From a virus, in IMG/VR virus record IMGVR_UViG_3300025684_000528, positions 1 through 41,629 of that record: a DNA stretch of 41,629 nucleotides. One strand, given 5' to 3'. Below are positions 867-41,084 of the stretch, one piece after another (the stretch's first letter is position 1; the number at the start of each line of letters is the position of its first letter). The notes beneath the pieces are model-generated. The model was not told the DNA's origin. It was given only the letters and a program-made list of their open reading frames with translations, and made no database searches. The translations under genes and the position numbers were made by a program.

Positions 867-934
867 TATATGGTAAACGTTGAAGCAACGTGGACACATA
901 CTGGACCCCGGTTCGATACCGGGCAGCTCCACCA

Positions 935-1017
935 CAGATACACTGTTTAAAAAGGAACATTGTTCTGGGCATAGCCAACGAAAATCTCCTATTTGAGGTT
1001 GGCAGTGTATCTTTGAT
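935..1017 (+). other. Intervening segment of the permuted tmRNA precursor
   Basis: This segment joins the CCA end (934) to the 5' end of the coding RNA (1018) and should be removed in maturation. AGATACACTG (936-945) pairs perfectly with CAGTGTATCT (1003-1012), and inside it GCCAAC pairs with GTTGGC. The two mature ends are therefore held together on top of a long helix, which extends the acceptor stem. Confidence 0.8.
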
Positions 1018-1097
1018 GGGGCTGAAATGGGATCGACAGGTGTGGAAGTGGAAGTGGAGTTTACCGGATGATCGCGCATAGATCAAAACTACTAAAT

Positions 1098-1142
1098 GCA
1101 AACAATAACTTTGCACCATCTGGTTATGCACTAGCTGCATAA
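1098..1142 (+). other. tmRNA tag reading frame (ANNNFAPSGYALAA)
   Basis: The resume codon is GCA at 1098. Fourteen codons read ANNNFAPSGYALAA and stop at TAA (1140-1142). The A-N-N start and the LAA end are typical of tags read by ClpXP and ClpAP. Confidence 0.88.
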
Positions 1143-1223
1143 ACACAGGGAGCTGGCCACTTGCTTAGCAACAGAAAAGTGGCATATCTTATAATGTTTT
1201 TAACTCAATCTAGGAAAAGTAAA

Positions 1224-22228: not shown

Positions 22229-24457
22229 ATGCTAAAAGTCGTTCAGTCAAACCGTGAAGTAGATACAAGACATATTATGTCGCAAGCTAAATTTTATGAA
22301 GGGTATAGTAGATGGGACGATAATAAAGAGAGATATGAATCTTGGGATGAATCAGTATCACGTGTAATGGAAATGCATAGAGGTTTTTATGTAGATAAAA
22401 TGTCTCCAGAACTATCTCTATTAATTGACGAAGCAGAAGCAGCATATAAGCTTAAGTATACTCTCGGAGCCCAACGTGCTTTGCAATTCGGTGGTGATCA
22501 ACTGATTAAACATCAGATGAAAATGTATAATTGTACATCTACATATGCTGATAGACCAAGATATTTCTCTGAATTGTTATACATTCTGCTCTGTGGTGCA
22601 GGAGCTGGCTTTTCAGTGCAAAAGCATCATGTAGGTAAACTGCCAGATTTACAAGAACGTAAGAAGCAAGCTAAAGGGTGGGTAGTAGAAGACTCAATTG
22701 AAGGCTGGGCTGATGCTCTTGGCGCTCTTATGTCATCATACTTTGTTGGTGGAGGTCAGTTTCCAGAACTGGAAGGTCGCAAAGTATATTTCGACCTAAA
22801 CCAAGTTCGTCCTAAAGGTGCTATGATTAATGGAGGCTTTAAAGCCCCCGGTCCTGAACCGCTCCGCAGAGCTCTCGATAAGATTGAGCACCTAATACAG
22901 ACTCGTATTTTAGCTGGTGAAACCCGTTTACGTCCTATTGACGTGTATGATATCTCCATGCATGCAGCAGATGCTGTGCTTGCTGGTGGTGTTAGACGTT
23001 CTGCTACTATCGCTTTGTTCTCATATGATGATACTGAAATGATGACAGCTAAAACCGGTAATTGGTTTGTAGACAATCCTCAGCGTGGTCGTTCAAACAA
23101 CTCTGCTGTAATTGTACGTGACGAGATTAGTAAAGAAGACTTCTCTAAGTTTATGAGCTCAATTAAAGAGTTTGGAGAGCCAGGATTCTACTTTGTAGAA
23201 GATAAAGACTTCACAACTAATCCTTGTGTTGAGATTGGCATGTATCCTCAGATTGATGGTAAGTCAGGTTGGCAGGGATGTAATCTAACAGAAATTAATG
23301 GTGGTAAATGTAATACTCCAGAAGAGTTCTATAAGGCTTGTCGTGCAGGTGCTATTATGGGCACTTTACAAGCTGGGTATACAGACTTTAAATATCTTGA
23401 TGAAACAAGTAAAGAGATCTTTGATAGAGAAGCTCTGTTAGGAGTTTCTGTAACAGGTTGGATGAATAATCCAGAGGTACTCTTAGATGCTGATATTCAA
23501 CATCGAGGAGCAGAGATTGTAAAGCAAGTAAACAAAGAAGTAGCTGCTCTTATTGGTATCAATCAAGCTGCTCGTACTACATGTGTTAAACCTTCCGGTA
23601 ATGCTTCTGTATTACTTGAGACTGCATCTGGTATTCATGCAGAGCATTCACCTCGCTATATTCGTCATATTCAGCTTAACAAAGAGACAGAAGTTGCTCA
23701 ATTAATTGCAAAGACTAATCCTTATATGGTAGAAGAGTCTGTATGGAATGCTAACAATACAGATTACTGTGTAGCATTCCCTATCATTGCTCCAGAAGGT
23801 TCTCTATATAGAGATGAGCTATATGGTACTGACTTATTAGAAAAGGTATCACTAGTACAGAATAACTGGGTAGAGGCGGGGACAAACGTGGATCTCTGCG
23901 CTGATGCACGTATCAGGCATAACGTTTCTAATACTGTAACTGTTATGCCTCATCAGTGGTCTCAAGTAGAAGATTATGTCTATAAGAATAGACACTCATT
24001 TGCTGGTATATCTTTTTTAGCTGGTATGGGTGATAAGGACTTTAACCAAGCTCCTATGACAGAAGTACTCACAGAAGATCAGATTGTTAATCGGTATGGT
24101 AAAGCTGCTTTGTTTGCATCTGGCTTGATTGTAGATACACGCAAGTCTGGTTTCCGTGATCTATGGGATGCTACTATGCAAGCTCAAACACCTGCTGAGT
24201 ACCGAGGAGAAGTATCTGATCTAAACGCTGAATGGATTCGTCGTTTCAAGAAGTTCGCAGATAACTATTTTATGAATGATCTTAAAGAAGCAGAGTATTG
24301 TCTTAAGGATGTTTTTTTGCTACATAAGTGGACTAAGGCACAACAGAACCTATCACCTATTGACTTTGTATCTCAGCTAGAGATTAAAAAGTTTACTGAT
24401 GTAGATACGATTGGTTCAGCAGCTTGTGTTGGTGGAGCTTGCGAAATAACGTTTTAG
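22229..24457 (+). CDS. nrdJ: Class II (AdoCbl-dependent) ribonucleoside-triphosphate reductase
   Basis: 742 residues, the length of the monomeric Lactobacillus-type RTPR. It reduces ribonucleotides to deoxyribonucleotides with a thiyl radical made from adenosylcobalamin. Visible sites: YNCTS with Cys102; NPCVE with Cys333 and Glu335 as the likely thiyl Cys and Glu; CNLTEI with Cys351 as the probable second redox Cys; and the C-terminal redox pair Cys733/Cys738 in ACVGGACEITF. KPSGNASVLLETASGIHAEH is also typical of the family. It has its own promoter and leader hairpin. It would supply dNTPs without oxygen or a second subunit, but needs cobalamin from the host. Confidence 0.95.
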   Translation: MLKVVQSNREVDTRHIMSQAKFYEGYSRWDDNKERYESWDESVSRVMEMHRGFYVDKMSPELSLLIDEAEAAYKLKYTLGAQRALQFGGDQLIKHQMKMYNCTSTYADRPRYFSELLYILLCGAGAGFSVQKHHVGKLPDLQERKKQAKGWVVEDSIEGWADALGALMSSYFVGGGQFPELEGRKVYFDLNQVRPKGAMINGGFKAPGPEPLRRALDKIEHLIQTRILAGETRLRPIDVYDISMHAADAVLAGGVRRSATIALFSYDDTEMMTAKTGNWFVDNPQRGRSNNSAVIVRDEISKEDFSKFMSSIKEFGEPGFYFVEDKDFTTNPCVEIGMYPQIDGKSGWQGCNLTEINGGKCNTPEEFYKACRAGAIMGTLQAGYTDFKYLDETSKEIFDREALLGVSVTGWMNNPEVLLDADIQHRGAEIVKQVNKEVAALIGINQAARTTCVKPSGNASVLLETASGIHAEHSPRYIRHIQLNKETEVAQLIAKTNPYMVEESVWNANNTDYCVAFPIIAPEGSLYRDELYGTDLLEKVSLVQNNWVEAGTNVDLCADARIRHNVSNTVTVMPHQWSQVEDYVYKNRHSFAGISFLAGMGDKDFNQAPMTEVLTEDQIVNRYGKAALFASGLIVDTRKSGFRDLWDATMQAQTPAEYRGEVSDLNAEWIRRFKKFADNYFMNDLKEAEYCLKDVFLLHKWTKAQQNLSPIDFVSQLEIKKFTDVDTIGSAACVGGACEITF

Positions 24458-37251: not shown

Positions 37252-37329
37252 GGACACGTAGCTCAGCTGGATTAGAGCAAGTGCCTTCTAAGCACTAGGT
37301 CGGGGGTTCGAGTCCTCCCGTGTTCGCCA
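37252..37329 (+). tRNA. tRNA-Arg(UCU)
   Basis: 78 bases with encoded CCA. Acceptor GGACACG pairs with CGTGTTC (one G-U); D stem GCTC/GAGC; anticodon stem AGTGC/GCACT with loop CTTCTAA, anticodon TCT; T stem GGGGG/CCTCC with TTCGAGT. It reads AGA (and AGG), common codons in this AT-rich genome. Confidence 0.95.
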
Positions 37330-37660: not shown

Positions 37661-38542
37661 ATGCACGGCAAATCTAAATGGCGAATAGACTTGCTTCGTG
37701 AGAAAATATATGAAACCACTTTTTATAAATCTCACAATAAAAAAACAACATGGGCAACTATTTGTAATAATATAATTAGCTTAGATAAAAAAGCTCATCT
37801 GCATTTAGATGATCCAGATTATCTTCTACATTATATAAAAATGTTACCTGCAGCTATGGAGATGCATAAGGATTATACTGATACAATATACCGTCAAAGT
37901 ATGACTTACACTGATAGTCCGGAATCCTTAAATAGAGATACTGAGTGGGTATTCGGAGTTATGCATAGAATCAATACAACTCCTCCTAGTCAATATCATA
38001 CACTTATTAGATATAATTGGAATGAAATCGCTCATATAGCTTATAAAAATTTAGCTTACGGATTTTACTATGATGCTATAGAAATTGTAAAATGCTTTGA
38101 TAAATTCTTTGAAACTAATTGGCCTTTATATGAGTTATGGCAAAAGACTATAACAAATAGATTCAGTTCAGATAGTTTCAATTTACCCTTTAATGTGTTT
38201 GCAGGTCATAGTATGGAATTTCCCCGTAGGTGGATAACATATCAAAATGTAAAAGCCATTGCATATCGAGAAATGGGGGATGCTCAAAGAGCAGAAGAAA
38301 ACTTTATAAAGTATACAGCTGATCATTATTGGAATATCAGTCACATGACTACAACTAGAGTTTTAGAATCAGCCTTAGAATGCTATATGCTTAATCCATC
38401 AGAAGAAAATAAGAAGTTAGTAAAAGATATATACGTGCACAGAGCCACTCAACAACCACTTGCTAACTTTGAATCTGTTACAGAATCTTTAAGTATTACT
38501 TATATGATGTATTTACATTTCTTTAAGAAAGAGATAACTTGA
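37661..38542 (+). CDS. Hypothetical helical protein (293 aa), radical SAM cassette
   Basis: 293 residues with TAGGGTAGGG before ATG. Predicted helical, with repeat-like stretches (WNEIAHIAYKNLAYGFYYDA and KAIAYREMGDAQRAEENFIK) that resemble TPR units. No catalytic motif recognised. The next gene overlaps by 4 bases, so it is co-translated with the radical SAM enzyme and may be its substrate-binding or scaffold partner. Confidence 0.65.
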   Translation: MHGKSKWRIDLLREKIYETTFYKSHNKKTTWATICNNIISLDKKAHLHLDDPDYLLHYIKMLPAAMEMHKDYTDTIYRQSMTYTDSPESLNRDTEWVFGVMHRINTTPPSQYHTLIRYNWNEIAHIAYKNLAYGFYYDAIEIVKCFDKFFETNWPLYELWQKTITNRFSSDSFNLPFNVFAGHSMEFPRRWITYQNVKAIAYREMGDAQRAEENFIKYTADHYWNISHMTTTRVLESALECYMLNPSEENKKLVKDIYVHRATQQPLANFESVTESLSITYMMYLHFFKKEIT

Positions 38543-39498
38543 AAATAGATAGGGCAGTCATTGAGATTAATGGAGGGTGTAACTATACCTGCCAGATGTG
38601 CCCTCAGACTGCCTCTGATGGGTCTACTGGTGCTCGTGGAAAAAACTGGCTAACTAAGATGTCTTTAACTGAATTTGAAGACAATGTAGCTCAATGTGCG
38701 GAAGCAGGATTAAATGTAGTTAATCTAGAAGGATCTGGAGAGCCAACATTAAATAATAACCTTCCAGAGTATATTGCTATTGTAAAGAAATATGGTGCTA
38801 AAGCATTTATGTTTTCAAATGGTATGAAAATGTCTGGTCAGTTTATGAAAGACGTTATTGATGCTGGTACGGATTTCTTTCGCTTTTCTATTATAGGGTA
38901 TAACGAAGAGAAATATAAAGAGTGGATGAATAGTCCCTTTTTCCGCAAAGTTTATAACAATCTAGTTGAAACTCAACAGTATGTAGAAGAGTCTAACTCA
39001 AGTGCTGTTATAGCAACATATCACCTTATACTTGATAATAACAATGTAGAGCATGAGGTAGAGCAGTATCGTAAGATAGTAGATACTGCAGGGGTTAAAA
39101 CAGAGATATGGAAAATGCACAATTGGAGCGGAGTGTATGATCCAGAATATAATAGACAAGGGGTTAAAAAAACCTGTGGTCGACCTTTTAGTCCAGATGT
39201 TGTTATAAGGGCCGGGGGTACAGATAATAATCGAGGTGCTATACATCCATGCTGCCAAGTATTAGGTAGAGATGATGAAGCAGTGCTAGGACATATGTCT
39301 GTGAACTCCTTAGAAGAAATATGGTATGGTGATAAATATAATCAGTTAAGAAAAGATCATGAGATGGGTGAGTACCCACCTTATTGCACTAACTGCGATT
39401 TTTTAGTGGATGATCCAGAAGTTTTAGTGTATACTAATCACGAGAGAGAGTTATATAAGATGCACGGAACTAATTTTGATTTGGATAATTACAGATGA
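38539..39498 (+). CDS. Radical SAM enzyme with SPASM-like C-terminus (TTG start)
   Basis: 319 residues, TTG start overlapping the previous stop. NGGCNYTCQMCPQ has the Cys14-x3-Cys18-x2-Cys21 that binds the 4Fe-4S cluster; NLEGSGEPTL is the GGE-type SAM motif. The C-terminal part has Cys213, Cys238/Cys239 and Cys283/Cys286 (HPCCQVLG, PPYCTNCDF) and SLEEIWYG, as in SPASM/twitch enzymes with extra clusters. Such enzymes modify peptides, proteins or sugars. The substrate is unknown. Confidence 0.9.
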   Translation: MKIDRAVIEINGGCNYTCQMCPQTASDGSTGARGKNWLTKMSLTEFEDNVAQCAEAGLNVVNLEGSGEPTLNNNLPEYIAIVKKYGAKAFMFSNGMKMSGQFMKDVIDAGTDFFRFSIIGYNEEKYKEWMNSPFFRKVYNNLVETQQYVEESNSSAVIATYHLILDNNNVEHEVEQYRKIVDTAGVKTEIWKMHNWSGVYDPEYNRQGVKKTCGRPFSPDVVIRAGGTDNNRGAIHPCCQVLGRDDEAVLGHMSVNSLEEIWYGDKYNQLRKDHEMGEYPPYCTNCDFLVDDPEVLVYTNHERELYKMHGTNFDLDNYR

Positions 39499-41084
39499 AA
39501 ATATTAATGGCATACCCTAACCTTCCTCTAATGATGTCTCCTGCTATTAGCGTTGCAATTTTTAATGCTATATCTAAAAGACGTGGAGTAGAGTATAAAG
39601 TATTTGAAACTACAGAGTATTCAAACGAATATTCTAACAGACATATTAAGCTAGCTAAGTTTGGGGCTAACCGTGGTAATGAAAAAGATGAGAGAGATAG
39701 TGAGTATTTTAATGTAAAGCCGGAAAGTGAAATTATTCCGGATTTTATTAAAGTGGTTGAAGAGTATGAGCCTGACGTAATAGTTATGTCAATGCAAGAA
39801 GATGTGTTTGATATAGCAGAGAAACTTTTAGAATCTATTAAAGATAAAAATATACCCCATCTTATAGGAGGAGTGTTTCCATCTCAAGCTCCTGAAGTTG
39901 TATTAAAATCTCCTCTTATTAACGCAATTGCTGTGTATGAAGGAGAGGAAACTTTCAATAAACTAATTACTGCATGGCAAGAGGGTAAGTCAATCACTAC
40001 AATAGATGGTGTGTGGTGGAAAGATGATGAAGGTAAGATTCGTAGAAATAAACCTAATCCTTTATGTGACGTGAGTGATATTATACCAGATTTTAGTTGC
40101 TATGAAAATAAGCGTTGGCAAAGACCGATGGGCGGTAAGCATTTCTATAGAGCTGTAAGTATGGAGACATTTAGAGGGTGTCCTTATAAATGCACCTATT
40201 GCAACTCTCCTGGTACTAGAGAGTTAGCAAAGGTTTTTAATCTTGGTAATTACATGAGAAGAAAATCAGCCGATATAATTAAGAGAGACTTAGAGTATTA
40301 TATTGAGCATATTGGTCCTGATCTTATCATGTTTCAAGATGACAGCTTTCTTGCAAGACCAGCAAAGGAGATCTTTGAGTTTTGTGAAATGTGGAAAGAA
40401 TATAAAATTCCTTTTTGGTTTAATACTCGTATTGAAAACTGTAAAGCAGAATATCTAGAAGCTTTAAAAGAAGCCGGTGTATATCGTATGACATTTGGCT
40501 TAGAGTCTGGTAATGCAGAATATCGTAAAAAGTATTTACATAGACCGACACGAGATTCTATTTACGATGATTATCTTAAAATTATAAACGATAGTGATAT
40601 ACCATATAGTTTAAACATACTTGTTGGAATGCCTTTTGAGACTAGAGAGATGGTTATGGACTCTGCAAGAATGGTTAGGTCTGCTAGAGGATATGACGGA
40701 CTAACAGTTTCTATGTTTCAACCTTATCACGGAACTAAATTAAGAGATATGGCTGTTGAAGCTGGATTTATGGATCCAGATTTAATATTGAGCGGAGGCT
40801 TTTTAGATAGTTACTTTTTAAAAATGCCTAAACCGTATCTACAGCCAGACGAAGTGTTCGCTCTTAATAAAACATTCGCTCTTTATGCATATTATGAAGA
40901 TGATAAATGGCCTCTTATTAGAAAAGCAGAAAAGGATGATAATCTTTTTGAAGAATTAATGAATGAATATAAAAAGGAATTTTATATGGGTAAATATCAA
41001 GTAGGCGGAAAGACTAGAATTAATCACTTAAATGGATGTGTAAAACATGATCCTTCATCTTCATACATATATGAAGTAGCATAA
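39495..41084 (+). CDS. B12-binding-type radical SAM enzyme
   Basis: 529 residues; ATG overlaps the previous stop by 4 bases. The N-terminal 160 residues are a cobalamin-binding-type Rossmann domain (KILMAYPNLPLMMSP, EPDVIVMSMQED, HLIGGVFPSQAPE, YEGEETFNKL), but the DxHxxG base-off motif is absent. Then RGCPYKCTYCNSPG holds Cys229-x3-Cys233-x2-Cys236, and FGLESGNAEYRKKY and LNILVGMPFETREM complete the radical SAM barrel. Members methylate or rearrange diverse substrates. Together with the previous enzyme it forms a two-step modification unit. Confidence 0.92.
   Translation: MKILMAYPNLPLMMSPAISVAIFNAISKRRGVEYKVFETTEYSNEYSNRHIKLAKFGANRGNEKDERDSEYFNVKPESEIIPDFIKVVEEYEPDVIVMSMQEDVFDIAEKLLESIKDKNIPHLIGGVFPSQAPEVVLKSPLINAIAVYEGEETFNKLITAWQEGKSITTIDGVWWKDDEGKIRRNKPNPLCDVSDIIPDFSCYENKRWQRPMGGKHFYRAVSMETFRGCPYKCTYCNSPGTRELAKVFNLGNYMRRKSADIIKRDLEYYIEHIGPDLIMFQDDSFLARPAKEIFEFCEMWKEYKIPFWFNTRIENCKAEYLEALKEAGVYRMTFGLESGNAEYRKKYLHRPTRDSIYDDYLKIINDSDIPYSLNILVGMPFETREMVMDSARMVRSARGYDGLTVSMFQPYHGTKLRDMAVEAGFMDPDLILSGGFLDSYFLKMPKPYLQPDEVFALNKTFALYAYYEDDKWPLIRKAEKDDNLFEELMNEYKKEFYMGKYQVGGKTRINHLNGCVKHDPSSSYIYEVA

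Follow-up and report, generated by a model that had tools for sequence, protein, structure and literature searches.

The DNA analysed here, referred to as the window, comprises 41,629 bases, is listed in IMG/VR as a linear record and is a fragment of a T4-like marine phage related to HTVC008M, Mosig and Melnitz. Pfam and PHROG matches within it include T4 RNase H, a segE-type GIY-YIG nuclease, PhoH, DUF6267 and DUF932, together with a cytidylyltransferase-like protein, a class II ribonucleotide reductase and a glycosyltransferase cluster. As the window is only a linear record without a completeness estimate, the contig might be supposed to be bacterial and its tmRNA an ordinary host gene, but the phage gene matches, an RNase H closest to those of HTVC008M and Melnitz, and viral relatives that are syntenic with the window make this scarcely credible, and bacterial contamination was rejected on those gene matches and relatives. 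The order tmRNA, o1621, o2222, DUF932, DUF6267 is conserved in T4-like contigs. Megablast with the initial 20 kb found nothing among 50,697 phage records, and distant blastn matched short tmRNA pieces only. The host of the phage is probably a marine alphaproteobacterium.

Most T4-like phages carry class I ribonucleotide reductases. The class II (B12-type) enzyme of the window, at 22229-24457, shares 66% identity with its counterpart in Rhizobium phage RHph_I1_18. Two adjoining radical SAM proteins are encoded at 38539-41084, downstream of the glycosyltransferase cluster; a SPASM domain is found in one of them and a B12-binding domain in the other. A tRNA-Arg(tct) gene at 37252-37329 recurs in tmRNA-bearing Melnitz, Mosig and DSS3_MAL1, and in contigs L004 and L090.

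A permuted two-piece tmRNA gene

Upstream of the tmRNA gene lies a pstS-like phosphate-binding gene (83-751), which matches only the C-terminal two thirds of its profile and is possibly cut by the contig end. It is followed on the forward strand by an inverted repeat at 821-853, a hairpin with a 10-bp stem (GCCCGGAGAA/TTCTCCGGGC), a loop of about 13 nt and a T-rich tail. This is probably the terminator of the pstS-like gene, separating that gene from the tmRNA unit; our terminator scan did not call it, the loop being too long for the scan.

The preliminary description had read positions 873-1183 as a phage-borne, circularly permuted two-piece tmRNA and had named a covariance-model search as one check. 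All three detectors find the gene. ARAGORN calls a permuted tmRNA at 841-1233 with the tag ANNNFAPSGYALAA, and two Rfam models match above their curated cut-offs: tmRNA_permuted (RF04321) at 872-1142 with 115.3 bits (E 5.8e-22, cut-off 47) and alpha_tmRNA (RF01849) at 840-1186 with 77.8 bits (cut-off 50). Since the 5' extension of the RF01849 match to 840 enters the probable terminator hairpin, we place the start of the gene proper near 872. The predicted fold of 873-1187 is 3.1 s.d. more stable than those of dinucleotide shuffles. Thus, positions 872-1187 of the forward strand are confirmed as a circularly permuted, alpha-type two-piece tmRNA, and the earlier boundaries were right to within a few bases.

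The acceptor (3') piece, supported by ARAGORN, Rfam and pairing analysis, comes first on the forward strand, at 872-934. It opens with the 5' strand of P2 (GGTAAAC, 872-878), which pairs with GTTTACC at 1059-1065, and continues through the T arm (907-923) to the acceptor 3' strand CAGCTCC (924-930), the discriminator A73 (931) and an encoded CCA (932-934). The acceptor strand pairs at seven of seven positions with GGGGCTG at 1018-1024, so the CCA and acceptor pairing described earlier are both borne out. Between the two pieces, an intervening sequence of 83 nt (935-1017), closed by a 10-bp stem (936-945 with 1003-1012), is presumably removed by processing. The coding (5') piece, delimited by ARAGORN, Rfam, pairing and fold analysis, occupies 1018-1187 on the same strand, its 3' end being approximate. 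Its acceptor 5' strand supplies the G of a G3·U70 pair, which together with A73 makes up the alanine identity elements of the gene. The PK1 region (1066-1085) is reduced to one helix: helix 4 (TGATC, 1069-1073, with GATCA, 1081-1085) is there, and a strict H-type search, itself blank in 19 of 103 full-class genes, finds no helix 3 of at least 3 bp. The tag frame runs from the resume codon GCA at 1098 to the stop ending at 1142 and, by direct reading, ARAGORN and Rfam alike, encodes the complete ANNNFAPSGYALAA that had been claimed, with a hydrophobic end in the LAA degron signal. Finally, a 7-bp 3' stem (GCCACTT/AAGTGGC, 1156-1162 with 1177-1183) encloses the conserved AACAGAA.

In gene order, G3·U70 acceptor stem, P2, tag position and AACAGAA, the gene resembles the alphaproteobacterial two-piece tmRNA (Caulobacter type, RF01849), from which it differs in being phage-borne, in having PK1 down to one helix and in a tag type not found on any clearly bacterial contig. 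It is also like the two-piece ssrA of Melnitz and Mosig, which are permuted tmRNAs in marine T4-like (Kyanoviridae) phages with no smpB found (PMC9004378). However, the tags of Methylophilales phage Melnitz (ANDNYVPVDYALAA) and Pelagibacter phage Mosig (GEDNFALAA) are different, their tmRNA adjoins a late-transcription coactivator whereas that of the window lies between the pstS-like gene and a small protein of unknown family, and, unlike in those phages, Rfam calls no glutamine riboswitch in the window. The alphaproteobacterial phages DSS3_MAL1, RcXuper and RHph_I1_18 likewise carry a permuted tmRNA with no smpB found, but with different tags and low identity outside the conserved core. In DSS3_MAL1, the tmRNA is directly preceded by a GOLLD RNA (769-1232) that overlaps a tRNA-Arg gene.

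Relatives, tags and size classes

Phage tmRNAs had been called rare in the preliminary description, and permuted forms rarer still, a view that the published record and our own searches contradict. Among 133 phage tmRNA structures, 53 were two-piece forms, 50 of them aquatic, and two-piece tmRNAs have already been reported as a feature of aquatic phages, including Melnitz and Mosig (PMC9004378). We found a permuted tmRNA in 13 of the 28 longer IMG/VR contigs with a close DUF6267 homologue, and two anchored pattern scans of IMG/VR, one for each size group, each returned at least 120 contigs. Isolates with a permuted tmRNA are HTVC008M, Mosig, Melnitz, RHph_I1_18, DSS3_MAL1 and RcXuper. That of HTVC008M (L353, NC_020484), at 145161-145370, encodes the tag ANFNEYALAA and extends over the end of gp194; the GenBank record does not annotate it. 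The gene described here adds one member to the published marine phage two-piece tmRNAs.

The matches listed from these scans gave 188 distinct phage genes (84 compact, 103 full and one longer), and the figures that follow refer to them. All seven acceptor pairs form in 178 of the 188, and pairs 4-6 change on both sides (GC/CG/TA). G3 faces U70 in 186; here U70 and A73 are fixed by the CCA anchor of the search, and G3 is free. The closing stem of the intervening sequence reaches at least 6 bp in 169 and AACAGAA is found in 181. The tags are intact, LAA being the usual ending and IAA and QAA the less common ones.

Tags vary among close phage relatives, from ANNNFAPSGYALAA to ANDNFAPSGFALAA and to forms with RLAA and AQAA ends. 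The tag type of the window, AN-x-N-(F/Y)-AP-x-GYA(L/F)AA, has one match in the genomes of 84,980 species: an alpha-type tmRNA with the tag ANDNFAPSGYALAA on contig NHBR02000136.1 (L090) of a 'Muricauda' MAG. This contig carries phage clamp-loader and clamp-like genes, yet is binned in a bacterial MAG; as 59 relatives of that MAG are without an alpha-type tmRNA, we read it as phage, and the search of these species thus gave no cellular source of the tag. The hope that the gene would help to name the host lineage is therefore only partly realized: the RNA is of alpha type, but the tag names no host, its sole counterpart in a bacterial genome being itself phage-like. A tag matched once in so many species, and then beside phage genes, might be thought to retag proteins with a phage-specific peptide that changes the choice of adaptor or protease, in place of simple ribosome rescue. 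We regard this as unlikely, because close phage relatives differ in the tag but retain its degron-like end, a pattern that points to loose selection on the middle part.

The distance between the motifs GGATCGAC and AAATGCAAAC, taken over at least 261 matches, falls into discrete classes of 22-25 nt (92 matches), 31-34 nt (29), 38-41 nt (12) and 53-64 nt (127), with one further value at 85 and, among the matches listed, nothing between the classes. Because the two scans adjoined in the gaps that they covered (12-40 and 41-70), the search did not create the empty stretches; it did set the relative sizes of the classes, each scan having returned at least 120 contigs. The compact genes (spacer of 22-41 as against 53-64 nt) keep the acceptor stem and the tag among the matches listed. 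ARAGORN finds only 9 of these 84 (3/54, 2/19 and 4/11 in the 22-25, 31-34 and 38-41 classes) versus 82 of the 103 full genes, again among the matches listed, and counts of phage tmRNAs that are based on it are consequently too low. In five genes of the 38-41 class (L119, L107, L144, L191 and L200), the true start of the tag is closely preceded by an additional GCAAAC; we rejected the short 'ANS' tags called in this class, which come from a wrong choice of frame at that earlier GCAAAC.

In the 22-25 class, the seven distal P2 positions pair at six or seven in all 54 distinct genes among the matches listed (mismatched partners pair at 66%), with exchanges such as GAAGAT/GTCTTC and GTAGAT/GTCTAC, and about 10 A-rich nt separate P2 from the resume codon. 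As judged from the sequences, this class has kept P2 and leaves no room for PK1; in the 31-34 and 38-41 classes, length suggests the same loss of PK1. Among full genes, 75 of the 103 in the matches listed score above their own shuffles for PK1-like pseudoknots, and helix 4 covaries (TGACC/GGTCA, TTGGC/GCCAA, TGAAC/GTTCA). In 19 of these 103, including the window gene, the strict PK1 search gave no score, so it is an incomplete detector.

Promoter position and history of the locus

The gene had been described as lying behind a strong promoter. A sigma-70 scan finds none above threshold, and we dropped that reading. What does lie there, at 861-868 on the forward strand, is TATAATTA, which differs at one position from the T4 late promoter core TATAAATA. 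It sits about 73 nt before the CCA end, where relatives carry ATAAATA, and its chance expectation within five positions in the window is about 0.01. We consider it probable from this placement that TATAATTA is the promoter, a near-match to the T4 late type rather than a strong sigma-70 promoter. The exact TATAAATA is no commoner in the window than expected by chance; four of its six forward-strand copies fall within 45 nt before a gene start, and such zones make up 6% of the window.

Among the matches listed for the relatives, 118 of the 188 genes have ATAAATA between -85 and -62 relative to the CCA end, with about 1.4 expected from the upstream flank. By class, and with expectations derived in the same way, it is present in 31 of the 54 genes of the 22-25 nt class (0.44 expected), in all 30 intermediate genes (0.05) and in 57 of the remaining 104, that is, 103 full and one longer (0.90). 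The authors of the Melnitz study inferred an early promoter for its tmRNA (PMC9004378), and the late-promoter reading suggested here differs from theirs.

Downstream of the tmRNA, the window has o1621, o2222, o2751 and further genes as far as DUF932 and DUF6267, and these also follow it in many relatives of both classes. The nearest relatives of the window have the compact form at the syntenic locus. In a tree of the o2222 protein, the window, itself of the full class, is nested in a starred group whose other phages (L015/L103, L210) are compact, and presence or absence of PK1 requires at least six changes on this quick tree, which has SH-aLRT support only. Two contigs with another tag (L008 and L009) share an identical run of 32 nt with the acceptor piece of the window. 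Exchange of the tmRNA gene between phages and repeated loss both fit.

A captured host gene carried without function might be suspected, as Melnitz and its relatives vary in having a tmRNA (17 of 47 contigs; PMC9004378) and 13 of the 28 fragments here have one. But the compensatory changes, intact tags and shared promoter position over 188 distinct genes among the matches listed, and a tag type unmatched on any clearly bacterial contig, make this very improbable.

A proposed role in ribosome rescue

We favour the reading that the window carries a working phage ssrA gene of the permuted alphaproteobacterial type, and put the probability of this reading, with the mechanism proposed below, at roughly 70%. 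A single precursor would be made from the T4-style late promoter, and host tRNA-processing enzymes would cut out the intervening sequence (935-1017), leaving the acceptor and coding pieces held together by the acceptor stem and P2. The G3·U70 pair would lead to charging by host alanyl-tRNA synthetase, and host SmpB and EF-Tu would carry the phage tmRNA to stalled ribosomes. There the ribosome would switch to the GCA at 1098, add ANNNFAPSGYALAA, stop and be recycled, and the tagged protein would pass to host ClpXP. That a phage tmRNA relieves ribosome stalling, as had been proposed, is reasonable. The likeliest benefit would be ribosome turnover late in infection, when host transcription has stopped and host ssrA is no longer expressed. 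Support for this reading comes from the anatomy of the gene, its conservation and covariation, the intact tags of many relatives and the placement of the promoter motif. Against it weigh the mismatch in the window's promoter, the single remaining helix of PK1 and the early promoter proposed for the Melnitz tmRNA.

A search for smpB found none in the 41.6-kb window fragment or in 30 other phage records, which included Melnitz, HTVC008M, Mosig, RHph_I1_18, DSS3_MAL1 and RcXuper, so that host SmpB is presumably used. The same result would suit a phage tmRNA that acts as a decoy, binding host SmpB and damping host trans-translation, as proposed for forms that consist of the tRNA-like domain (TLD) only, such as that of mycobacteriophage DS6A; furthermore, tmRNA is strongly inhibited by a TLD-like molecule, and titration of SmpB may be the reason (PMC4131195). 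The window gene shares with DS6A a phage-borne tRNA-like domain, but DS6A is without a tag frame (PMC4131195; PMC11915505) and the window has a complete one. A decoy would need neither a tag frame nor an LAA end, and both are kept, together with the resume codon region, in nearly all relatives of every size class among the matches listed; their retention makes a decoy improbable, slightly more so than retagging.

With regard to the compact genes, PK1 is present in all tmRNA groups except mitochondria, with two exceptions without helix 4 (PMC1168896). Tagging in E. coli requires PK1 according to a review, though a hairpin can replace it (PMC3968760); in that bacterium, PK1 can be substituted by a hairpin and even by single-stranded RNA (PMC3968760; PMC4236655). 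Natural PK1-free phage tmRNAs are thus plausible; we found no report of them in the open-access literature, our coverage of which was partial, leaving priority uncertain. On balance, we are somewhat inclined to believe that marine T4-like phages hold a large, overlooked class of late-expressed, PK1-free two-piece tmRNAs, and that the window gene, with its one PK1 helix, sits inside a clade of the compact form. The compact class is a candidate variant around the window gene.

The fixed position of the putative late promoter yields a testable prediction of the stage of infection at which the phage would want its ribosomes rescued. Furthermore, if the reading of the compact genes is true, they would be natural tag-bearing tmRNAs that dispense with PK1, and so may serve as natural test molecules for the need for PK1 in trans-translation.
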